Below are positions 4,431 through 23,825 of a stretch of 25,553 nucleotides of DNA, piece by piece (within the stretch, counting starts at the first letter, position 1; each line of letters opens with the position of its first letter). The DNA is from Agmasoma carcini (nom. nud.). Lineage: Eukaryota > Microsporidia > Thelohaniidae. Made by a program: the position numbers and the translations under genes. The notes beneath the pieces were generated by a model that ran no database searches, had not been told where the DNA came from, and was given only the letters and a program-made list of their open reading frames with translations. The stretch spans positions 1 to 25,553 of the forward strand of contig JAOXFI010000062.1 of assembly GCA_029232285.1 (NCBI GenBank). The letters are read 5' to 3'.

Positions 4431-5090
4431 TTATTTATAAGATCTCTCAAATCTAAGTATATAACTAAGATCACAATAACAAGCCACTCCATTATTAATA
4501 CAAATCGCTAAATAATCATCAATCCTCTGTTTTGATACACGAAACCTCGTACCTTCAATAACACAATGACTATATAATGAACTCTCACTTGGATATAAGC
4601 TAAAATCAAAACTAGGCTCTGCAATATCACTCTTCATAATAAAAAATTCACTGTCATCATTATAAAACAATGGATACTCCTCTACAATCTCTAATCCTTC
4701 AACATCATCAACAGCAACAAAAGATTCTTCTAAAAACTTATTATAATCAAATATTTGTTCTAACTGTTCTTTAGCTTCACCTCTCTTAATCTTATCAGAC
4801 TTTTTCTTCTGATCCCTATAATACTCACTATCACGTACTTCTGACTTTTTCAACCAAGAATATTTATTTGTAGATTCCCAAGAATCATAAAGCGTACCAA
4901 AAACGTCTAACTCAAAATTTTCGGAAAAAGGTGTGTATATCTTTTTGTTTTCATTATCTAAATATGAATCATGACACTGTGTATCTATGTTAGGAACCAT
5001 ATCAATGAAGACAGGGCCTGGGAGGTCAGGAGGGGGTGTTTTTCTTAATCTTACTACTTTCTCAATCTGCTTATCGTCCATTTCTTTCAT
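4431..5090 (-). CDS. PAF1: PAF1-like subunit of the RNA polymerase II PAF complex
   Basis: Probably PAF1, the scaffold of the PAF transcription-elongation complex. Near the N-terminus it has a PPPDLPGPVF stretch, like the proline-rich opening of PAF1 (L-P-x-P-P). At residues 79 to 84 it has W-L-K-K-S-E, close to the family hallmark W-L-R-K-T-E-Y. A charged KKKSDKIKRGEAKEQLEQIF helix and a short beta-rich end follow. I start it at 5090 (ATG-AAA-GAA-ATG); the longer frame to 5168 would add 26 residues rich in Phe and Ile that look like translated upstream AT-rich DNA. The next in-frame ATG, at 5081, is also possible. The product is 219 residues against about 445 in yeast, so only the core would be present. 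It could be an unrelated protein sharing the W-L-x-K motif. Confidence 0.52.
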   Translation of the reverse strand: MKEMDDKQIEKVVRLRKTPPPDLPGPVFIDMVPNIDTQCHDSYLDNENKKIYTPFSENFELDVFGTLYDSWESTNKYSWLKKSEVRDSEYYRDQKKKSDKIKRGEAKEQLEQIFDYNKFLEESFVAVDDVEGLEIVEEYPLFYNDDSEFFIMKSDIAEPSFDFSLYPSESSLYSHCVIEGTRFRVSKQRIDDYLAICINNGVACYCDLSYILRFERSYK

Positions 5091-5343
5091 AATAAAATTT
5101 GGAAAAAATTTACTAAATTTGAAAAAAAATATAAAATATTCACACAACTTAATGATAAGCATCATCATACATGACTATAATCATTTCAGTATTAGTAATG
5201 CATTAATCTTTTATGTTCATTTTGTGATAATTGTTCAGGGTTCTGTTGTATTAACAGGGGCACGGTAAATTAATGGGGGCAAAGGCATCAAAAGTCGATC
5301 ATACACACGCATACGTGATGAAATATATATCACAAGATAAAAT

Positions 5344-5350
5344 AAAAACA
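5344..5350 (-). terminator. Candidate Pol III T-run after RNase P RNA
   Basis: On the minus strand a TGTTTTTA run follows the RNase P RNA about 16 nt beyond the P1 helix. Five consecutive T residues are a standard RNA polymerase III termination signal. T-runs are common in this AT-rich DNA, so position next to the RNA gene is the main support. Confidence 0.5.
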
Positions 5351-5365
5351 ATAACTTAAATCATG

Positions 5366-5592
5366 GGGGCCAATTATCAGACGAAGAGTAGTCTGAATTA
5401 TGTTACGGAAAACCGCCTTCTGCATTCGACTATTTTTACGGAGATACTACCTTTCCAAGCTCTAGTAAAAAAGCGAATTTCTATTATAGTAGCCCATAGC
5501 TTTAACTATTCACCATTTCGGTGTGGACACTCCTCTCAGACCTTCCTAAGAGATTCACTCCTTGCAGAAGCTTTCAACTGATAATTGGCACT
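5366..5592 (-). ncRNA. RPR1: RNase P RNA
   Basis: RNA subunit of RNase P, the ribozyme that trims tRNA 5' leaders. Read on the minus strand, GGAAGGTCTGAGA (5534 to 5546) is the eukaryotic conserved region CR-I, and AATTCAGACTACTCT (5385 to 5399) is CR-V; both match my memory of human H1 RNA base for base. CR-I and CR-V form P4 (GGUCUGA with UCAGACU). The ends pair as a perfect 12-bp P1 helix, GCCAATTATCAG (5578 to 5589 with 5369 to 5380). P2 is CTTCTGC with GCAGAAG (5564 to 5570 with 5417 to 5423). Between P2 and P4 only a five-base-pair hairpin (5548 to 5562) stands where P3 should be. A T5 run on the minus strand (5345 to 5349) may be the Pol III stop. The span is about 225 nt against about 340 in human. 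It has higher GC than its surroundings. CR-II/III were not placed with confidence. Confidence 0.9.
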
Positions 5593-5699
5593 AAAACTTT
5601 TCATTAGCTTTTTTATTTCAACTTTTTTCTAGAAAAAAAAAATCAATTTTTTTCATTTCCCTAGATTTATGTATTTTCATGTTGTAAAAAATTTGTCCA
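5593..5699. promoter_or_regulatory. Shared upstream region of RNase P RNA and SMC4
   Basis: About 107 bp separate the 5' end of the RNase P RNA (read leftwards) from the SMC4 start codon (read rightwards), so a Pol III and a Pol II promoter must share it. It contains long A/T runs and a TTTCCCTAG element about 45 bp before the SMC4 ATG. No clear A-box or B-box was found. Confidence 0.35.
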
Positions 5700-8600
5700 A
5701 TGGTTAAGTTACTGTCCGTGGAAATACATAACTTTAAATCCTACATGGGTACATACCTTATTGAAGGGTTTGACCCTCATTTTACTGCAATTGTAGGACC
5801 TAATGGCTCAGGAAAGTCAAATATAGTTGATTCAATACTATTTGTGCTAGGATATAGAGCAAAAAAGATGAGACATTCTTCTCTTAAGGATTTGATCAAT
5901 ATAAACTGCTCAGAGGCATATGTCGAGCTTAATTTTGATAAATTTAGTCTGAGAAGGGAAATCAACAAGAGTTCAACATCAAAATATTATTTAAATAAGA
6001 AAGAAATAAGCAATCAAAAATTACTTGAATACTTAAAATCAAATGATATAGACGTGGATAATAACAGATTTCTTATTTTACAAGGTGAAATAGAAAACAT
6101 AAGCCTTCTGAAACCATTAGAATTGTTATCGTATGTTGAAGATTGTATAGGAACATCTGATTATAAAAATAAGATTGATCAGATGAAAATTGATATTCAA
6201 AATGATGAAAATACTTTACAATCTAAGAAAGTGAATCTAAAATTTGTTGAAAATGATTTTAACTTTAAAAAAGAAAAGAGAGAGAAGAATCTGGAGATAT
6301 TGAACTATAAATATTGTGATTCCACTAGGAAGCATGAGATTCTTCAATATAAGAAAGAAATTGCACAAAGAAAGTATGATGAGATTGATAATACTGAATT
6401 AAATAATAAGTTACAAGAGATCACATCCTTTACAAAAGAGGGAAACATCTTAATTAATCAGAAGAATCAACAACTTTATGATCTTGATCTTAAAAAATTA
6501 GAAAATGATTATTTTAATTTAAAAAAAGAGGTTTCATCAGTACAAAACTATAATAATTCTTTAGAGAAGAAAAGTCAAAGGATAAAAAATGATATAAAGT
6601 CGTGTAATGATGATCTTATGGCTTGTGATGATCGTATGAAAGCTTTTAATCAAGAAAAGGATACTTTTAACTCGGAATATAAACAAAATATAATTGATCT
6701 AGAAAGTTTCTATAAGGATTATAAAACGTTAAAGTCTAGGATTAATAATAATAAGGAATATAAAAAGCTTGGTGACAAAATAAAAAATTTGAATATGAAG
6801 CTGATAGAGGTAAGATCTAAGAATGAGAAATATTCAGGATATGCTGACCAAGTAAATGCACTAGAGACTGAGAACATGAAGCTTTTGTGTGTAGTCAAAG
6901 ATATTAAAGATCTTAACACCTTAAAGACTGAGATAGAGTGTATAGCCAGTGATATCAACAAGACAAAGAGTGCTATTTCAATGAGAAAGTCAAGAAAAAA
7001 AGAAAATATGTATCTTGAACAACAATATAGAAGAGAATGTGAAATTAAGGACAGTCTAAGACACATAAATGGTGTTTATGGCCAATTAAAGGATGTATGT
7101 AAAATTAAGGATGGATATGAAACTGCTGTAGATGCATCCACGAAATCATTTTCAAATATTGTAGTTGAAAATAAAAGTGTAGCTGATAAATGTATAAAAA
7201 TCATAAACGAGCGAAAATTAGGACGACAAACGTTCATTGTCCTTGATAAGGTTGAAGAATTTAAGAATTATGAGCCAGGATTTGATTATCTTGTTGATAA
7301 AATTCATTGTGAGAAAAAGTTTGTTAGTTGTGTTAAATTTGCTGTTAAAGATACAATTGTGGTTTCTACCATTGAAGAGGCCAATAGTATTGCTTTTGGA
7401 AAGAAAAGGAGGCGTGTTGTTACGTTAGATGGTAAATTATTTGAAAAATCTGGTATAATGAGTGGTGGTCAACAAAAGAAAGTCAAGAGTATTAGTGAAT
7501 TAGAAAATATTTTAGTAAATATGGAAAAGGCTTTAAGTGATAAGGATGATGTTTACAATAAGATAAAGAAATACAACAGTAACTTGGATTTAATTCAGAA
7601 ATACAAGAAATATTCGGTTGATACCAACAACAATGAAGAAATAGAGGGGGTTATTAGCCAAATAAACAAGTATTCCAAAGAAATGGATAATCTAAATATT
7701 AAGGGCCTGCAATCTGAACTGACAGTTTTAAATGAAAAGATCAATTTCTTAGAGAAAAGGAACAAAGATATCAAAATTAAAGTTGAGTCATGTAGTTTTA
7801 ATGAACGTGATCAAATATTAAGCAAATTGGATAGGCTTAATGAAGAATTAAGACGGCTTGTAGCGAAAGAGATCAATTCAAAGGCAATTAAAAACATAGA
7901 AATACATTTTGGAAATGATTATGATAAAAGGAAAATTAAGGATGTTGACGAGCTTCTTGAATTATCAGAAAATCTTTATAATGAAAGATTTACACTCTAT
8001 AAACAGCTTAATAACGAGATTAAAGACATAAGAAACAACATGGGACAGAAATATCATGAAGAGGCTGAAATTAAAGCTAAAATTGAGGAAAATATGGATA
8101 TGCTTGCTAATTGTGAAAGGATTTTTACTAATTGTGATCAGAAGGAGCATGTTTTGAGAAGTGAAGTAAAAACTATATCTGCTTTACTCAAAGAACTTGG
8201 TGTTGGTGTATCTGACACCCCTGTGAGTGTTGAACTAGCCAATTTTTCTATATCTGAGCTTAAACAAAAGAACAAAGAACTGCTTGATGAGTTAAACAAG
8301 ATCGATAAGGAGAATCTTGAACTGATTTCAAGTGCTGAGAACTTAAGTGAGGTAGCAGCATATACCATCGTATTTGCCGAGTATGAAACATCAAAAAAAG
8401 CATATGAGGAGGTTCTGGCTGAGGTTCAATACTTTGAGAGTAAAGTTTCAGATTTAAAAGTTAAAATGACTGAAGCAATATCAGAACGGACAAATAAGTT
8501 TATGAAGGGCTTTAATGAAATCAATTCTCACCTAAAGCAAATATTTTCTCAAATCACATACGGTGGAAATGCAATTTTGGATTTAATTGATTTTTTGAAT

Positions 8601-8948
8601 CCTTTTGAAGGAATAGTTTTGAATATTATGCCTCCTAAAAAGAGTTGGAAGCAAATAAGTCATCTTAGTGGAGGAGAAAAAACATTGTCATCACTTTCCT
8701 TAATATTTGCATTACATAAGTACAAGCCATCATCTTTTTATGTTATGGATGAAATTGATGCAGCTTTGGATCATAAAAATGTTTCAATTATCTCTCAGTA
8801 TTTGAGTCATGTTCAATCTCAATTTATTGTGATTTCATTAAGAAATGATATGTTTGAAAAAGCTGAGAAACTTTTGGGTGTTTATAAAAAGGATGAAGTG
8901 TCTAAGTTTTTGATGGTTGATATTAAAAAATATATGAAAATGTTATGA
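5700..8948 (+). CDS. SMC4: Condensin ATPase SMC4
   Basis: Structural-maintenance-of-chromosomes ATPase that pairs with SMC2 in condensin to compact mitotic chromosomes. Residues 10 to 60 give HNFKSYMG, Walker A GPNGSGKS (33 to 40) and FVLGYRAKKMRHSSL. The family form R-A-x-K-M-R separates SMC4 from SMC1 to SMC3. The Q-loop is at Q128. Coiled coil runs about 160 to 450 and 595 to 940, with the hinge at about 455 to 592 (NGVYGQL at the start, MSGGQ at the end). The C-terminal head has signature LSGGE (989 to 993), Walker B FYVMDEID (1013 to 1020) and a D-loop ALD. All catalytic motifs look intact. Length is 1082 against about 1290 to 1420 in human and yeast; the N-terminal extension is missing and the coils are shorter. 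The start follows directly after the short intergenic region shared with the RNase P RNA gene. Confidence 0.96.
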   Translation: MVKLLSVEIHNFKSYMGTYLIEGFDPHFTAIVGPNGSGKSNIVDSILFVLGYRAKKMRHSSLKDLININCSEAYVELNFDKFSLRREINKSSTSKYYLNKKEISNQKLLEYLKSNDIDVDNNRFLILQGEIENISLLKPLELLSYVEDCIGTSDYKNKIDQMKIDIQNDENTLQSKKVNLKFVENDFNFKKEKREKNLEILNYKYCDSTRKHEILQYKKEIAQRKYDEIDNTELNNKLQEITSFTKEGNILINQKNQQLYDLDLKKLENDYFNLKKEVSSVQNYNNSLEKKSQRIKNDIKSCNDDLMACDDRMKAFNQEKDTFNSEYKQNIIDLESFYKDYKTLKSRINNNKEYKKLGDKIKNLNMKLIEVRSKNEKYSGYADQVNALETENMKLLCVVKDIKDLNTLKTEIECIASDINKTKSAISMRKSRKKENMYLEQQYRRECEIKDSLRHINGVYGQLKDVCKIKDGYETAVDASTKSFSNIVVENKSVADKCIKIINERKLGRQTFIVLDKVEEFKNYEPGFDYLVDKIHCEKKFVSCVKFAVKDTIVVSTIEEANSIAFGKKRRRVVTLDGKLFEKSGIMSGGQQKKVKSISELENILVNMEKALSDKDDVYNKIKKYNSNLDLIQKYKKYSVDTNNNEEIEGVISQINKYSKEMDNLNIKGLQSELTVLNEKINFLEKRNKDIKIKVESCSFNERDQILSKLDRLNEELRRLVAKEINSKAIKNIEIHFGNDYDKRKIKDVDELLELSENLYNERFTLYKQLNNEIKDIRNNMGQKYHEEAEIKAKIEENMDMLANCERIFTNCDQKEHVLRSEVKTISALLKELGVGVSDTPVSVELANFSISELKQKNKELLDELNKIDKENLELISSAENLSEVAAYTIVFAEYETSKKAYEEVLAEVQYFESKVSDLKVKMTEAISERTNKFMKGFNEINSHLKQIFSQITYGGNAILDLIDFLNPFEGIVLNIMPPKKSWKQISHLSGGEKTLSSLSLIFALHKYKPSSFYVMDEIDAALDHKNVSIISQYLSHVQSQFIVISLRNDMFEKAEKLLGVYKKDEVSKFLMVDIKKYMKML

Positions 8949-9627
8949 AATAATAAAAATGATTAAATTTTATGATTTTGATGTTAAAATTATTAAAGAT
9001 TAAGAGATGGATAATATACTTGAGAAAAATGAATGATTTTTAGTCAATTTTGAAAATATTTGTTATAGTTGTCGTAATTACTATATATTGTTATATATTT
9101 TTACGAATCTTGTAAACTTGCCGGAAATTATATATCTGTTAAAGATCTTAATTAATTTTCAATCGGACCTTATATTTTTCATTGCAGAAATCAAGTTTTT
9201 AACAAAGGTTATCTGATATATCAGAACAAATTTTCAATATTAAGAACATTAAGATATTTAAATTTCTTTTTATAGGGTTTTCCAAAAGTTTAAGGGTTTT
9301 ATCAATATGTTAAATTATTTTTTTCAAAAATATCCATAAACTTTATATATCTAATAATAGACAAAAAACAATAATTATAAGCATTTTTGTTTATATTTGT
9401 AAAAAGAATTTAACGTCTTGAAAAAAATTTAAATTTTTGATGTATAATCTAAATATATTTAATTGGGCTTAATCGGGTTAATGAGCTAGACAATCCATGA
9501 AATTAATATCATTTTCAACCTAGAAATGTAATTTTGTTGAAGCTTGAATTATACGAATGACATCATTTATGCTGAAGGGTGTACCATGTGTGCTATAGGA
9601 TCAATATAACCTCATGAATTTAATATT
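8949..9627. other. Gene-free AT-rich stretch after SMC4
   Basis: About 680 bp with no open frame of note, no RNA structure I recognise and no clear repeat. It consists of AT-rich decayed sequence between SMC4 and the candidate intron gene on the other strand. Confidence 0.5.
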
Positions 9628-9829
9628 TCATTTATAATCAGCAATCTTCTTTATCCTTGATCTGACATGCAACCTCAATATATTAAAAACTTCCTCCGGT
9701 TTTTGTGGTTTTATTAATACACGCTTCTTTGAACCTATCTCCTGAACTTCTTCATACCTACCCTTTTCCTGTCGTTCGTATTTAATTTAAATCCACACTA
9801 ATAAATTTATATTATCTTACCCTAATCAT
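9628..9829 (-). CDS. Possible 49-residue protein encoded with one 52-nt intron
   Basis: On the minus strand a clean 46-codon frame (9768 down to the stop at 9628) has balanced, gene-like codon use that stands out from its surroundings, but it lacks its own ATG. Just upstream lie ATG-ATT-AGG (9829 to 9821) and then GTAAGA, with TACGAACGACAG ending at 9769. Removing 9769 to 9820 joins three codons in frame to the rest. The predicted product is small and basic, starting MIREKGRYEE, with a central KKRVLIKPQK and ending RIKKIADYK. An intron directly after the first codons is the usual place in microsporidia, often in ribosomal protein genes. I do not recognise the protein. It could instead be a fragment of a dead gene with chance splice-like signals. 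Confidence 0.4.
9769..9820 (-). other. Candidate 52-nt spliceosomal intron
   Basis: On the minus strand the stretch begins GTAAGA, ends CAG, and carries TACGAAC just before the 3' end, close to the yeast-type branch site TACTAAC. It contains in-frame stops, so the flanking frame is only usable if it is removed. Both exon junctions keep frame. The weakest point is the very short first exon (nine bases). Confidence 0.4.
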
Positions 9830-9897
9830 CTTTTATTTTTTTGAAATATATATATATAAATTATAATATAATATCTTATAAAAATAAACACTATATA

Positions 9898-10081
9898 CAG
9901 TACTCCAAAAAAAAACCGGAAATCCCAATAAGTTTGTTTAAAAGGTGTAAATTTTTGAATAAAAAATAAATCGAGTTTAATAGTATGAGTATATTATAAT
10001 ATTTTTTATTTTTTAAATCGCGCATTTTATATAAACTCTTTTGATAATTTTGATTAAAAAACATATAAAAAACGGACACCT
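9898..10081 (+). repeat. Left terminal inverted repeat of Tc1 copy 1
   Basis: Starts CAGTACTCC, followed by A-rich DNA and a degraded outer motif (ACCGGAAATCCC near 9915). The intact inner motif CGGACACC lies at 10073 to 10080. It aligns over its whole length with the reverse complement of 11134 to 11332, for example TTTAAAAGG, TTTTTGAATAAAAAAT and ATAAACTCTTTTGATAATTT. Confidence 0.88.
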
Positions 10082-10149
10082 AGAAAAAAATATCATATAA
10101 TTTTTTCTCTTTATATGACTATTAATAAGAAATACAAAACAAATACTCT

Positions 10150-11129
10150 AATGGGAAACATGTTTCTGAATTCGACAAATGTCGAATTTTTCAGTTATTT
10201 TCTATGGGGTTTTCAATACGCGAAAACGGTGTAAAAACCGACTTAAAAAGATCTATAATACAAGATTACGTTAGAAAACACAATAATGATGAAGAAGATA
10301 AAAGAAAGGGTTGTGGTGACAGGAGAAATCAATTTATATCAGCAATATCAATTTATTAAAAATGATCAATTAAATTCCTACGCTACATGCCACAATATCA
10401 AAAAATAAGTATCTGTGATGAAAGTGTGCGTCTTTTTTATTAAAGAAAATTACTTTAGATGTGTTTATCCTTCTTCTAAGCCAAAATTATCAAATGCACA
10501 AATCATTAACAGATTAAGAATTGCAAAAATATGGCTATTTAAAGGCAAATACTACTTTAGCGATTTTATTTTTTTTCAAATGAAGGTTTTTTAGCATTTA
10601 TAATGACTCTGAGAGACAAAAGGTGTGGGTCGAAGAAGAAAAATCAACGCTTATAAATATAACTATTAAATTTGGTAAGAAGAAAAAATTGATTGGGTTG
10701 TATGAGTAGAAAAATGTTGGAAATTTTGTTTTTTTGGATGACCTTAAATGTACTATATTATACTCAAATATTAAGGAAAAAAATAATTGAGAGTGCACGA
10801 AAATTATAGTTTTCAAAATATAAATTTCAACAACATAATGATCTAAAGCATAAAAATAAGATGGCATCAAAGTTTTTTAAAATATGATCATTTAAATGTT
10901 AGAATAGCCTTCATAAAACCCAGATCTTAATCCAATAGAACATCTAAAGGTATGTTTAAAGCAGAAACTAAAAAACGTTGTTTTGAAAACAAACAAGGCG
11001 CATTTAATATCAAAAATTACTAAAATGTGGTCTGATATCAATATTTTATATTGTAGAACACTAGTAGATTCTATGAGTGACAGAATTAAAAACGTTATCG
11101 TGGCAAAAGGTGGTCATAAATCATATTAA
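10150..11129 (+). pseudogene. Tc1-family transposase remnant, copy 1
   Basis: A DD34E-type transposase broken by several stops and frameshifts. The N-terminal helix-turn-helix is readable from 10153 (GKHVSEFDKCRIFQLFSMGF, then SIRENGVKTD). In the middle a QKVWVEEE piece corresponds to the family's K-x-V-W-R region. FQQHNDLKH (from 10825) matches the family's FQQDNDPKH, with the second catalytic Asp changed to His. The end, from 10923, is one open frame: DLNPIEHL with the catalytic Glu, then KMWSDI, LVDSMSDRI and a final GGHKSY before the TAA at 11127 to 11129. The coding part ends a few bases before the inner direct repeat of the right inverted repeat. It cannot make an active enzyme. Confidence 0.9.
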
Positions 11130-11133
11130 ATAA

Positions 11134-11332
11134 AGGTGTCCGATTTTTCATCAGATTTTTATTATTTTTTTTATCAAAATTATCAAAAGAGTTTATATGA
11201 AATTTCTGATTTAAAAAATAAAAAAACATTATAGATATACTTATACTATTAAACTCAAATAATTTTTTATTCAAAAATTTACGCCTTTTAAACAAACTTT
11301 TTGGGGTGTCCGGTTTTTTTATAGAAAATCTG
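11134..11332 (-). repeat. Right terminal inverted repeat of Tc1 copy 1
   Basis: Inner motif AGGTGTCCGA starts at 11134 and outer motif GGGGTGTCCGGTTTTTTT at about 11303. The outermost bases are more decayed than on the left but still end in CTG followed by TA. This side keeps a better outer motif than the left repeat. Confidence 0.88.
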
Positions 11333-11351
11333 TATATAATTATGAAAATAA

Positions 11352-12195
11352 TCATTTTATTAAATCATACAATTCATTAAAATTATCTTTTGCAATATTA
11401 TACTACCACTCGAGCAAATAGGATTCTAATAATCTAGGATAAGAGCCCATCACATTTTCAATCTTCTTTTTAATTTGTTCCACAAAGATTCAATGTTTTG
11501 ATTGTGAACGCTATTAATCAAATTGACGAAGTTTAAGCCATGGTGACTGTTGATTGAGAGAGATTTAGATCATGAATATAGCTATGCCATTCATCACACC
11601 ATATTATTTAACCTTATCCACACATTGCTTATTATAGGTAAAAGGCTGGCTGCACTTCTACTTTTCAATAATTTGGTAAAATATTTTGAGGGTTGGTGTG
11701 ATGTATCCAAAATACCAAACCCCTATCTCTCTTCACTTCATACTCTTCCACCATGATGCTTTTGTTCATATTTAAACATAGATTCATAAATTTGACAAAT
11801 CACACCAGCCCTAGAAAAATTTGTTATAAATCAAAATATTTTTTTCTCGATTTATGGATATATTTTATTTGCACAATCCTTAGACAAATTAGGTTCGCAA
11901 ACAGTCGTAGCTTGTGGAATATTTTCAAACCATCTTAAACATAAAATAACTGCCTTACGTAATGATATTTTAATATCACCAAAAAATTATTTAATCTTAT
12001 ATTTATTTCTTTTAAATAGTTACTAAAGATGACTTTGTAAGAAATAAAAGCCATATTATCAACTGAGAGAAAATATTTAAATTATTTAAAAGGGTTGTTA
12101 CGTACAACCCAGTATACAATCCTTTATATAATACCTTTATTTCTTAGAATTTCATCACTTTTTCAACATTATTCTGGTTCAATGCAAAATTAAAC
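11352..12195 (-). pseudogene. Merlin (IS1016/ISXO2-like) transposase remnant 1
   Basis: Reading the minus strand through frameshifts and stops recovers a full-length Merlin-type transposase. NNVEKVMKF comes near the start (about 12190). It is followed by NFFGDIKISLRKAVI and LRWFENIPQATTV, and later VKRDRGLVFW, CDEWHSYIHDL, GLNFVNLINS and VHNQNIESLWNKLKRRLK. The end is KDNFNELYDLIK with a stop at 11352 to 11354. The family hallmarks (S-F-F near the N-terminus, S-D-E-W, N-H-x-x-N-F-V, H-T-Q-N-I-E-S-x-W) are all recognisable in order. About 844 bp long, like remnant 2, though the two are quite diverged. Its terminal repeats were not identified; the nearby Tc1 element may have removed or displaced one. 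Confidence 0.82.
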
Positions 12196-14149
12196 ATGCT
12201 AAAATGTACTAGAATCAAATTTTCTTTAAAATCCACTTTTAAACAATTTTTTGTGTAATTTAGTCAAAATAAATTTATTGGATGACCCTATTATTTGAAT
12301 ATTAATATCATGGAATGTATTTCTGTGGATGTGAAAAATATATATTTAATATTTATAAATTATGCTTAAGTCACCACCTCAATAGCTCTATATCTCCTAG
12401 AATTACATAAATTTTATAAATTATTGTGTTTTTGTAAAATAAGTTGCACCGATGATCTGGATATAGCCGTGTTTCATAAATCTTTTATATTGAAATTTTA
12501 TCTTCTTTTAAGTCTCAAAAATTGATTTTTAAATCTAAATATTAATGACTACTAATGAAGCAATTATTTATATGATATTATTGAATTTTATGGAAATAAA
12601 CGGTATATTTCCACCATGTTCCGGGGTTTTCAGCAAATTTACAACACTATACATGATACAAAAAATTAAAATCAATATACAGTACTAACTATAAAGGTAC
12701 TTATATCCATTTAATTATTTTTAATGTTCACCAAAAATCAATCATTTTAGGGGTGTCCGGTCGTTTCATGGCACCACTCGTTTCTCAATAATAATGAGTT
12801 AAAATATGACAAAATCCGTAAAGTGATTTCCACCCTTTTAGTTATTAAGGATTTAATCTCACTGATAGGTATCTATAGGCTACTAACACCAATAAAAACA
12901 TTAAAAAAACCATTAAAAAAACCATAAGACTACAATTTTGTTTAAAATGAAAAAAATCAAAAATTTTATATTATCAGCCCCCCTTTGGGCTATACAATAT
13001 CTGGTATATCATCTAAAGTTGATTTGAAATTATAGGAATACCTCGCTCGCATGTAATTGTCTCACCCACATTCAATTAAAGAGGTATATTTCGACATATT
13101 TACAAACAAATTCTAAGGTTATTCTTATTTTTTTATACTAAAGTAGCTAACTCAGGTCTGACTCCAAAGTCAAGAAGAAAAGACATTCTTGTCAGAAAAT
13201 GATACACCAATTCAATACTAATACGATATATTCTATGTCATGCTTATCTTAACCTCACATCATGATTTTAATTTACAGATACTTGATACAACCTTAAAAT
13301 TCACACATTTTCTAAGCAATTGATAAAATTTCTCTGATGTAGAACATTCTTAATACCAACTACATTATCCCATCTCCATCTGTTTGTTCTTTATTTATTT
13401 ACGTGCAGCTCAATCTAAAACACTAATAATATCAACTTCTTGTATGCTTTAGATCTTTACAGTTCTCAATACTTTCTTAACAGCTCAAATTCCTTTTCAA
13501 ACAGAAAAATCAACCCATAGAACATCGTTCGTATTTGCATTCTCTCATATCGCAAATTTCTGTTCACAATTGCTATACTCCGTTAGATTCAGTATATTCT
13601 ATTTCTTTTACAAAGGCACTTGAATCTCTAGGCTTCTTTCGATGTATAAACATACAGTATCAATAATATCTTTATTTATATCGTCATATTGTTGGAACTA
13701 CTTTTATTGTTATTCTCCATTCCATTGTCTCTCACCATCTAGGAATAGATATTTTGGCTTTTAAATATTTAATTAACAACTGTCAAATATAATAATCACT
13801 ACAAGCATCCATAAAATCTAATACAAAGCTGATATATATGATCTTATCTTGTTGGGATGGTTAAAATCAACATCTTTATCTATGATTATTATCCCTAAAG
13901 GTATCTAGTTATTTTTCTTCTGAAAATTAGCTTCGGCACAATATCTGACAAAAATTATAGAAAACAGACAATTTCCCGATAACGTCTATTATATCAGTTA
14001 ATTCGACTTACACCATTTCATACGTAATATACTTTAAAAAGAGATAAATATATTAAAACATACTATAAATATTCATAGTAGAAGTATATTCTTTATTGAC
14101 CCAGGGGTTAGTTGCCTCTTTCCCAAAAATCAATTTATAAACTAACAAA
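12196..14149. other. Two kilobases of decayed intergenic DNA
   Basis: No intact gene. Features noticed are a small Tc1-end-like fragment (12680 to 12760), a GC-rich hairpin AGCCC/GGGCT (12976 to 12991) in otherwise AT-rich DNA, and a duplicated CATTAAAAAAAC at about 12899. Between roughly 13300 and 13980 the base composition is less AT-rich. The minus strand shows short out-of-frame coding-like pieces (FVLDFMDACSDYYI, EYTESNGV) vaguely like a retroelement integrase, but I could not assemble a family. It probably holds further mobile-element debris. Just before the P0 gene a CCCAGGGG and a TTTCCC element occur. Confidence 0.4.
12680..12760. repeat. Possible Tc1-type terminal repeat fragment
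   Basis: TA-CAGTACTAAC at 12678 to 12689 resembles the Tc1 copy 1 tip (CAGTACTCC). GGGGTGTCCGG, ending at 12760, matches its outer direct-repeat motif exactly. No transposase lies beside it. This could be a small non-autonomous element or debris of a related family. Confidence 0.3.
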
Positions 14150-15313: not shown

Positions 15314-17398
15314 ATGAATAATTCTAATGAAAACAAAATTAAAAGTCTAAAAAAATATTTAGAAAAGACGTCTGGGCGGGAAAAGGAGAGTGTTGAATAT
15401 AAAATAAGAAAGCTACAGCTTAAAAAACCAGATAATTATTATTCAACAAATACTACAACACCTAAGGAAATAATTGAAGAAATAAAAGAAAATCAAATAT
15501 TAATTTTGTCAGGTATCCTCAAGTTGATCAATCTTGATCCGAGCCTTAAGGCAAATACCTTATCCAAAATACAGGAATGTAGAATGAAAATACTTTTGTA
15601 CAACAATATTTTAAGCGAGAAATTTACAAATAAAACAGGTGAAGTTGAAGAAGTTACAGGTACAATAAAATTAGAAATCAAAAAACTGGAAATTGATCCT
15701 TCTTATGAAATAAAGAGAATAGAAGCATCAATACTTAACAAAAACATTAATACATGGCCTATACATGAAAAAACAATAGAATTTTCTGTTGATGATGAAC
15801 CTAACATTATTTTGACCTTAACCGGTTCAAATCGATCGATACATGGTATAATAATCTTACCTTGTGATTTTTTTATTAAAAATAATAAAAAAACAGTTAT
15901 TTTGGATTTTAATAACTTCAACTCAATCGAAACAGTAATTAGTTTCGATCATAGGATTATACTTAAAAGGGTTCCAGCAAGACTTAACTGTATTATGTCC
16001 TTTAATCATTTTATGGAAAAAGATTCTAAATCAAAGTCTTTTTATTGTAACGTTTGCGAACAGAAAATAAATGCGCTGGAGAAATCACTTGTATGTAAAC
16101 AATGTAAGGTTAGAACACATATCAAATGTGCTTCAAGTATATACTTTTATTGTAAAAATACTCGTATTGCATCTAAGAAGAGAAATTCTAATTATACAAT
16201 ACAACATACACTGAAAAAAACACGTACGTTTATTGGAATACATTGTTCACACTGTGGTAATGAATTCAGATTCCTTTCAGAGGCTTATTGGTGTAGTAAA
16301 TGCTTTTTATATTTTCATATCAGTTGTGAAAAATATATATTTGATTCATGTGAAATGACGACAGTATTAAGATGTAGATTATCATTATTTGTTTCTCCAA
16401 TCCTTAGTAACAAAATTTATCAGAACGAAAGTATAAATAACTATGAACTTATCAGAGTCATAGGAAGAGGTGGGTTTTCTAAAGTAATATTGGCAAAAAA
16501 ACACTACACTAACCAAAAGGTTGCATTTAAAGTAATAAAGAAGGAAAATCTAAAAACAATATTTGATATAAGCTACATCGAGGCAGAAAGAAAGGTTTTA
16601 GAACAGTTAAGTTATAATAATCATACCTTTATAGCCAACCTTAGAACATTATTTCAGGATAAATATTATATTTACTTCGGATTGGAATTTTTATCAGGAG
16701 GTGATCTATTACATCATACTAAAAAACAAATTTTCCTTGAAAATGAAGTTAAGTTCTACGCAGCAGAGTTATTTTTGGCAATAGAATTTCTTCATAAGAA
16801 AAATATTGTTCATAGGGATTTAAAACTTGATAATATTTGCTTAACTTACGACGGTCATATAAAAATAACTGATTTTGGCATGTGTGCAATGCATATTGAT
16901 AATAATTCAGTAACTTATACATATTGTGGTACCCCTGATATCATAGCACCAGAGATTTTAAAATATGGAGGATATGGTCCTTGTGTTGATTGGTGGTCTT
17001 ATGGTGTTGTTATTTATGAACTTATTCATAGAAAACCACCGTTTATAAGTTCAAATATTAAAAAATTGATTTATTGTATTGAAAACAATAAAATAGAATA
17101 CAGGACCGACATCTCTAGTGAAATAAAATCATTTTTATCTGGTCTGCTGGAGAGAAGAGTAGTCAAAAGATTGGGATATGGGCCTGATGGATTTAATAAT
17201 ATAAAAAACCATTCCTTTTTCAGTGATATTGATTGGGAAATGGCAGAAGGACAGCATTTAAAACCACCATTTGAACCAGGTGATGATCCTAAGAATTTTG
17301 ATGATAATTTATCAAAGGAGCCCTGTATATTGACACCATCTGCTACTCCTAAGGTTTTTGAGAAGTTTTGTGAAGCCTTAGAAATAGACAAAAATTAA
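15314..17398 (+). CDS. PKC1: Protein kinase C, fungal Pkc1-like (HR1, C2-like, two C1, kinase)
   Basis: Serine/threonine kinase of the AGC group, in fungi the Rho-activated head of the cell-wall-integrity pathway. Two short HR1-like leucine-rich helices (about 5 to 40 and 50 to 105) are followed by a C2-like beta domain (about 124 to 225). Two C1 zinc domains follow (232 to 280 and 298 to 346). Both keep every ligand, with spacing H-x12-C-x2-C-x12-C-x2-C-x4-H-x2-C-x7-C. The kinase starts near 377: glycine loop GRGGFSKV (384 to 391), Lys406, HRDLKLDN (500 to 507), DFG (520 to 522), activation site T536 in TYCGTP, and APE (545 to 547). The turn motif LTPSATP is at 673 to 679. The hydrophobic motif is FEKFCE (682 to 687), with Cys where Ser/Thr is normal. 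Just before the first C1, LKRVPARLN may be the pseudosubstrate. Length is 694 against 1151 in yeast. Confidence 0.93.
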   Translation: MNNSNENKIKSLKKYLEKTSGREKESVEYKIRKLQLKKPDNYYSTNTTTPKEIIEEIKENQILILSGILKLINLDPSLKANTLSKIQECRMKILLYNNILSEKFTNKTGEVEEVTGTIKLEIKKLEIDPSYEIKRIEASILNKNINTWPIHEKTIEFSVDDEPNIILTLTGSNRSIHGIIILPCDFFIKNNKKTVILDFNNFNSIETVISFDHRIILKRVPARLNCIMSFNHFMEKDSKSKSFYCNVCEQKINALEKSLVCKQCKVRTHIKCASSIYFYCKNTRIASKKRNSNYTIQHTLKKTRTFIGIHCSHCGNEFRFLSEAYWCSKCFLYFHISCEKYIFDSCEMTTVLRCRLSLFVSPILSNKIYQNESINNYELIRVIGRGGFSKVILAKKHYTNQKVAFKVIKKENLKTIFDISYIEAERKVLEQLSYNNHTFIANLRTLFQDKYYIYFGLEFLSGGDLLHHTKKQIFLENEVKFYAAELFLAIEFLHKKNIVHRDLKLDNICLTYDGHIKITDFGMCAMHIDNNSVTYTYCGTPDIIAPEILKYGGYGPCVDWWSYGVVIYELIHRKPPFISSNIKKLIYCIENNKIEYRTDISSEIKSFLSGLLERRVVKRLGYGPDGFNNIKNHSFFSDIDWEMAEGQHLKPPFEPGDDPKNFDDNLSKEPCILTPSATPKVFEKFCEALEIDKN

Positions 17399-22756: not shown

Positions 22757-22880
22757 AAAATACTCCTAAAAACCCTTACACCTCAAAAAGTTGATTTGAA
22801 AACCGAAAATATTAAATAAAAAAATATAGTCTAATCATATAAGTATATTTGTTTTTTTTTCAATAAAAAACAGACACCTT
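22757..22880 (+). repeat. Tc1 copy 2 terminal inverted repeat (3' side of the transposase)
   Basis: Contains a degraded outer motif (CCCTTACACCTC near 22773) and an inner motif CAGACACC (22871 to 22878). Between them AGTTGATTTGAAAA and the ATTAGAC/ATAAGTATAT words correspond to those in copy 1. It is shorter than the copy 1 repeat, with an internal loss. Confidence 0.72.
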
Positions 22881-22883
22881 TAT

Positions 22884-23825
22884 TTAATATGATGTATGAC
22901 GATCCTTTGCTAAATAAATTCTTTAATTCTATCACTCATGATATCTAATAATGTTCTACAATATAAATCACATTTCATCAAATTTTATATTAAATGTGCC
23001 TCGTTTTCAAACCAACAATTCTTAATTTCTGCTTTAAATAAGCCCATAGATGTTCTATAAGGTTAATATATGGGCTCCGTAAAGGTCATCCCAAACCACA
23101 ATGTTCACATATTCAAAAAACTGTGATGCTATCTTATTTTTATGTTTTGAATCATTGTTTGCTGAAATTTTGTGCACTATTTTTAAAATATTGATCAACA
23201 TTTGAATATAAAATAGTGTATTAAAGGTTCCATTAAAAACACCAAATTTCCAACATAATTTCTACTTATACACCCTAAACTATTTTTGCTTTTTACAAAA
23301 ATCAACAGTTTCGATTATAGGCGTTGGTTTTCTTTGACACACATCTTTTGCCTCTTAGAATCATTATAAATGTTAAAGAAACTTTATCAGAAAAAATAAA
23401 TCACTAAAATAGTCTCCTATTCAAATAGCCATAGTTTTGAAACTCTTAACCTGATGATTATTTTCAAATTTGATAATTTTGTCTTAGAAGAAATATAAAT
23501 ATATCTAAAGAAGTTTTTCTTTAGGAAAAGAATTACACGTTCATCTCAGAAATTCTCATTTAAAATATCTTAAATCAATTTTTGATATTTCGGCATGTGG
23601 TGTAGGGGTTTTTATTGCTTATTCGTGATTTAAATCAATATGCCTTATATCAATTAATTCATCCTTACGACTACCACCCTTTCTTATATCTTTTATAATA
23701 TCATTTGACGTGATTTTGCACATTAGATCTCTTCAAATAAGCCTTTTACACATTTTTCGAGTATTGAAACCCACATGAAACTAGATGAACATTCGACCTT
23801 TGTCGAATTCGAGAAATTTACGCAT
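22884..23825 (-). pseudogene. Tc1-family transposase remnant, copy 2
   Basis: Minus-strand homologue of the copy 1 transposase, more decayed. It begins near the ATTCGACCTTTGTCGAAT palindrome at about 23788, which corresponds to ATTCGACAAATGTCGAAT at 10170 in copy 1 (the EFDKCR part of the helix-turn-helix). The block ATTCTAAGAGGCAAAAGATG on the minus strand equals copy 1 around 10605. The C-terminal NLIEHLW and ATCATATTAAATAAAGGTGT are still readable. Many stops and deletions exclude function. Confidence 0.82.

Follow-up and report, generated by a model that had tools for sequence, protein, structure and literature searches.

A nuclear RNase P RNA with a stub P3 in a microsporidian genome, and the probable loss of the P3/Alba module from RNase P and RNase MRP

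The RNase P RNA gene and its conserved core

The window analyzed here is the whole 25,553-base contig JAOXFI010000062.1 (C67) of the Agmasoma carcini (nom. nud.) genome (4.26 Mb, 69 contigs), and its minus strand carries a gene for the nuclear RNase P RNA. A previous sequence-only reading had placed an RNase P RNA with an almost absent P3 domain at 5366-5592, which corresponds to the gene as delimited below plus three nucleotides (nt) on each side. Covariance analysis using cmscan bore out the identity: the Rfam family RF00009 (nuclear RNase P RNA) matched 5581-5377 on the minus strand over model positions 1-301 with 76.5 bits (E 2.2e-20; cut-off 28). RF00009 was the sole family reaching its gathering score in the window and the sole family at E ≤ 1 within 5200-5750. 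The expectation that no better RNase P RNA lies elsewhere also held, as no second RF00009 match was reported genome-wide (15 of the 50 first-look candidates scored). The elements of the gene, in 5' to 3' order of the RNA, are as follows:

5369-5589 (-): RNase P RNA gene, 221 nt from the first to the last P1 base, delimited by the RF00009 match and the helices; ends predicted
5578-5589 (-): P1 5' arm, 12 perfect base pairs (bp) without G-U, with 5380-5369
5563-5570 (-): P2 5' arm, 7-8 bp without G-U, with 5424-5417
5548-5562 (-): P3 stub, 15 nt, 5 bp, loop UGAAU, with neither internal loop nor distal helix P3b
5535-5546 (-): CR-I including the P4 5' strand (5535-5542), GGAAGGUCUGAG, matching the Rfam consensus letter for letter
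5477-5482 (-): putative CR-II, AGAAAU, matching the Rfam consensus
5452-5460 (-): putative CR-III, GCUUGGAAA, matching the Rfam consensus
5423-5431 (-): putative CR-IV, AGUCGAAUG, from the Rfam alignment
5417-5424 (-): P2 3' arm, pairing with 5570-5563
5385-5399 (-): CR-V including the P4 3' strand (5390-5397), AAUUCAGACUACUCU, agreeing with the family consensus
5369-5380 (-): P1 3' arm, pairing with 5589-5578

The elements at 5477-5482 and 5452-5460 are those which we take to be CR-II and CR-III, respectively, and the assignment of 5423-5431 to CR-IV is likewise our assumption; CR-II and CR-III tell RNase P RNA apart from MRP RNA. P4 is formed by 5542-5535 and 5397-5390 (8 bp, two of them G-U). 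These results confirm the coordinates and helix lengths read from the sequence (a 12-bp P1, a 7-bp P2 and a five-base-pair hairpin at 5548-5562), with the qualification that the last P2 pair has a probability of 0.34 and P2 is thus given as 7-8 bp; the minus-strand CR-I and CR-V recognized in that reading also stand. In 2000 dinucleotide shuffles, a perfect helix of at least 12 bp joining the 30 nt at one end to the 30 nt at the other was never obtained (longest, 11 bp), and a helix of at least 8 bp at the P2 places was obtained in 18.

It appears highly improbable that we are dealing with a degenerate or truncated copy instead of the working RNase P RNA: P3 and P12 are indeed short, but the match extends over the full Rfam model, the conserved regions are intact, P1 is a perfect 12-bp helix, the match is the sole one reported for RF00009 in this genome, and the P3 of the MRP RNA described below is trimmed likewise. 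A pseudogene or a chance match was ruled out by the score, the single reported match, the intact core and the shuffles. An MRP RNA mistaken for RNase P RNA was also rejected, the locus matching RF00009 only (no RF00030 at E ≤ 1) and a separate MRP locus being present. A search with the CR-I to CR-V pattern gave no match in bacterial, archaeal and viral contig collections, a result uninformative on microsporidia. The locus is a nuclear RNase P RNA, and judging from its sequence it is presumably transcribed and active.

P3 stubs in the RNase P and MRP RNAs

P2 and P4 are separated by 20 nt, within which no hairpin other than AGGAG-UGAAU-CUCUU exceeds 3 bp. Its arms, AGGAG (5562-5558) and CUCUU (5552-5548), form five pairs including one G-U, and the element amounts to 15 nt versus 45 positions in the Rfam model. 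The Rfam alignment retains precisely the outer helix of P3, with 15 positions deleted on each side, corresponding to the internal loop and the inner helix, in agreement with the earlier proposal that P3 has been reduced to a stub. When the only constraint was that the P4 strands stay single-stranded, the P3 pair probabilities were 0.69 for the outermost pair and 0.84-0.87 for the others; with P1 and P2 also forced, they were 0.65 and 0.80-0.82. P3 joins P2 with zero or one linking base, and the two helices probably stack.

A large P3 internal loop, described as present in most, not all, eukaryotes (PMC13022451), is replaced here by the 5-bp hairpin; such a loop is not a condition of membership in the family, since Giardia is also reported without it (PMC3228867). 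Most model positions from CR-II to CR-III, the P12 region, are deleted in the Rfam alignment as well, and the trimming therefore extends beyond P3.

The same genome encodes an RNase MRP RNA candidate (RF00030) at 38808-38962 (-) of contig C21, with 155 nt matched at 44.6 bits (E 3.1e-11). Published features of MRP RNAs include a GARAR loop on P8 and a CR-IV (AnAGUnA) located 0-3 nt before the P2 3' strand (PMC1796607). At this locus we observed a GAAAG loop, as expected of P8, and a CR-IV-like element, which reads AUAGUUC directly before AAUGCUGUU, its last letter being C, not A. P1 of the MRP RNA has a small bulge. A run of four T follows immediately past the match.

In the Rfam alignment of the MRP RNA, 33 P3 model positions are reduced to 2 nt, and P3 is a hairpin, UUGGAG-CACG-CUCUAA, of 4-6 bp at most, of which P2 may claim some pairs. 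A 12-bp P2, favoured by the unconstrained fold, could absorb the outer and some of the inner P3 pairs; a P2 ending at 9 bp leaves GGAG/CUCU free, and one ending at 6 bp gives a 6-bp P3. This inner core, GGAG/CUCU, is common to the P3 of the RNase P and MRP RNAs, G-U pair included. The likeness could stem from the common descent of both RNAs, and a shared binding partner is also possible.

Protein subunits and the fate of the P3/Alba module

The genome was searched with eight protein profiles (POP1_N, RNase_P_p30, RNase_P-MRP_p29, Rpp14/Pop5, Rpr2/Rpp21/Snm1, Alba, Rpp20 and RMP1). The first five exceeded their cut-offs, and the corresponding frames were rescanned as proteins, giving Pop1, Rpp30, Rpp29/Pop4, a Pop5/Rpp14-family protein and an Rpr2/Rpp21/Snm1-family protein, which span 111-367 amino acids (aa), Pop1 being shortened to 367 aa. 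The PF04032 find would be Rpp21 and the PF01900 find Pop5, these families also holding Snm1 and Rpp14, respectively. In the genome search Rpp29 reached 27.6 bits and the best Pop1 piece 27.9 (40.3 with the neighbouring piece), and the profiles behind the Rpp29, Pop5/Rpp14 and Rpr2/Rpp21/Snm1 finds are small (84, 104 and 90 positions). The F-Q-R-x-P and R-R-R motifs of Pop1 (residues 38-48) are retained in all 20 aligned sequences, and the segment corresponds approximately to yeast Pop1 residues 87-99, a placement interpolated from a weak match (E 0.88). Yeast Pop1 residues 91-99 are described as contacting P4 and CR-IV (PMC7351766). The predicted structure of Pop1 has a mean pLDDT of 78.8.

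For Alba (PF01918) and Rpp20 (PF12328), no match was obtained in the genome at E ≤ 10 and no first-look candidate passed. As positive controls, yeast Pop7 scored 109.2 bits against the Rpp20 profile and 26.7 bits against Alba, for which yeast Pop6 gave 53.2; because the profiles recognize yeast Pop6 and Pop7, the absence of Alba is informative, short of proof. These results support the suggestion of the sequence-only reading of a possible loss of the Pop6/Pop7 pair. RMP1 (PF20945) likewise gave no genomic match at E ≤ 10, with a profile that had no positive control. A search with yeast Pop7, which reaches close relatives only, returned 36 proteins, the species-named ones from budding yeasts and none microsporidian.

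We consider it likely that the locus is a working microsporidian nuclear RNase P RNA and that the P3/Alba module has been lost from both RNase P and RNase MRP, because neither RNA retains the loop or the distal helix and the dimer could not be detected; loss instead of non-detection is what we infer.

Several observations weigh against this. P3 is absent from the unconstrained minimum-energy fold of the RNase P RNA (-67.5 versus -60.8 kcal/mol), which pairs 5553-5545 with 5540-5532 and consumes CR-I, so that P4 is not formed; this alternative pairing of the P3 arm was ruled out once P4 forms. The MRP RNA score of 44.6 lies under the RF00030 gathering score of 50, and at E ≤ 10 the MRP search also matched 13 of 14 prokaryotic controls, none above the cut-off. 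The assembly may be incomplete, because the small subunit ribosomal RNA model RF02542 gave no match in its 69 contigs (5 of the 64 candidates scored). Pop6 has been counted among young, fungi-confined factors (PMC3919561), which would weaken the term 'loss' for Pop6; elsewhere it is treated as a homologue of Rpp25 (PMC11621453). Finally, a very diverged Alba/Rpp20 protein could have been overlooked, because the weakest true finds scored 27-28 bits, no first-look candidate passed and microsporidian proteins evolve fast (PMC3919561).

This last point leads to the explanation in which the P3 stub is real and a very diverged Alba-fold pair persists, binding the short hairpin or Pop1 alone. The fast evolution of microsporidian proteins and the scores of Rpp29 and the best Pop1 piece are in its favour, in that still weaker relatives would escape, but two profiles which recognize yeast Pop6 and Pop7 gave nothing at E ≤ 10, other subunits with small profiles were detected, and neither RNA retains the internal loop. 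We therefore regard a persisting pair as unlikely and favour loss of the module from both enzymes.

Genomic setting and comparison with known systems

The surroundings of the RNase P RNA gene comprise the following features:

5700-8948 (+): SMC4 (condensin) gene, 1082 aa, divergent neighbour, identified by Pfam match and relatives
5344-5348 (-): run of five T, 20 nt past P1, a possible RNA polymerase III stop; the run is read from the sequence and its function presumed
4431-5168 (-): 245-aa open reading frame, downstream neighbour, with no Pfam match at E ≤ 0.001

The RNA gene therefore sits, as had been noted from the sequence, in the gap separating two protein genes. Among the 120 of 5106 SMC4 matches listed, the nearest named relatives are Enteropsectra breve (40% identity), Glugoides intestinalis (38%) and Pancytospora (36%). 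One gene of the window matches the Pfam family Actin_micro, which we take to be a microsporidian family. These Actin_micro and SMC4 matches are the grounds on which the sequence itself points to a microsporidian.

Elsewhere in the window, 9904-11325 and 22865-23529 appear to be two decayed transposon copies in opposite orientation. The segments 9904-10076 and 11151-11325 form inverted repeats (83-85%), and a frame at 10917-11129 contains DLNPIEH, a motif that presumably marks a Tc1/mariner-type element. The five kilobases at 8949-14149 are devoid of any 100-aa frame, and the transposon remains fill only part of them; frame-free gaps of such size are unusual in small microsporidian genomes. A protein kinase of 694 aa with a C1 (diacylglycerol-binding-type) domain is encoded at 15314-17398 (+). 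The contig starts in a TACTAT repeat (1-164), and a 15/29-base minisatellite array is present (912-1145).

Compared with the RF00009 family, the RNA described here is alike in that the full model, P1, P2, P4 and the conserved regions are matched, and differs in the deletion of the P3 internal loop and inner helix and of most P12-region positions. The Nosema locustae MRP RNA was reportedly given as 160 nt by Piccinelli in 2005. Reduction of P3 has precedents, and the novelty assigned to it in the sequence-only reading was overstated: the distal helix P3b is described as absent from microsporidian MRP RNAs (PMC1796607), and the P3 helices of both the RNase P and MRP RNAs of Giardia as short, without internal loop and resembling the bacterial model (PMC3228867). 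The MRP RNAs of Nosema locustae and Encephalitozoon cuniculi are given as the shortest (PMC3228867), and the 155-nt MRP match of the present genome fits these short, P3b-less RNAs. A microsporidian RNase P RNA with a stub P3 may already have been published. Whereas the cited statements on microsporidia cover MRP RNA, the contribution here consists of both RNAs plus a protein list from one genome; the main text of a 2026 structural study on RNase MRP does not contain the word 'microsporid' (PMC13184271). Giardia intestinalis, in turn, is a distant lineage in which both P3 are short and without internal loop and for which the authors saw no reason for an unusual protein-RNA relation (PMC3228867), whereas no Alba gene was found here. 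The likeness to bacterial RNase P RNA concerns the P2-P3 region, the prokaryotic P3 being a single helix (PMC8509007); the present enzyme differs from it in having several protein subunits and the conserved regions typical of eukaryotes.

In yeast, Pop6-Pop7 are reported to bind P3 and to assist the engagement of Pop1 (PMC7351766). For yeast MRP, removal of the P3 hairpin abolishes Pop6 binding and lowers survival, and changes at the Pop7-bound end of P3 are described as being without noticeable harm (PMC8509007). Of the ribosome biogenesis factors, microsporidia are stated to retain no more than about half (PMC3919561).

In the model that we propose, the catalytic core (P1, P2, P4, CR-I, CR-IV and CR-V) and the tRNA-recognition motifs (CR-II and CR-III) are preserved and the outlying parts cut, the MRP RNA lacking the part of P3 that the RNase P RNA also lacks. 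P3 normally docks the Pop6/Pop7 (Rpp25/Rpp20) dimer, helping to hold Pop1; with this module gone from both enzymes, the shortened Pop1 and the archaeal-type proteins (Pop5, Rpp30, Rpp29 and Rpp21) would brace the core directly, and P3 would be a simple hairpin next to P2, the arrangement seen in bacteria. The protein contacts in this scheme are putative. A stub P3 alone is not expected to improve the ribozyme, and proteins should still be needed, because human H1 RNA with a bacterial-type P3 is reported to be less active in protein-free form (H1 RNA 8 versus H1 RNA 1: 5.1e-7 versus 1.1e-6, and 2.3e-6 versus 1.4e-5 per min; PMC13022451).

One part that distinguishes eukaryotic RNase P and MRP from simpler RNase Ps is P3 with its Alba dimer, which also helps to hold Pop1. 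We lean slightly towards a view in which archaeal-type proteins around a mini-Pop1, combined with a bacterial-like P2-P3, constitute a natural minimal eukaryotic RNase P/MRP, the P3/Alba module being dispensable when lost from both enzymes. Its components, an RNA of 221 nt and proteins ranging from 111 to 367 aa, are few and could be reconstituted in vitro. If the interpretation is true, the twin stubs, the undetectable dimer and the reduced Pop1 would represent a natural deletion experiment on the P3/Alba module.
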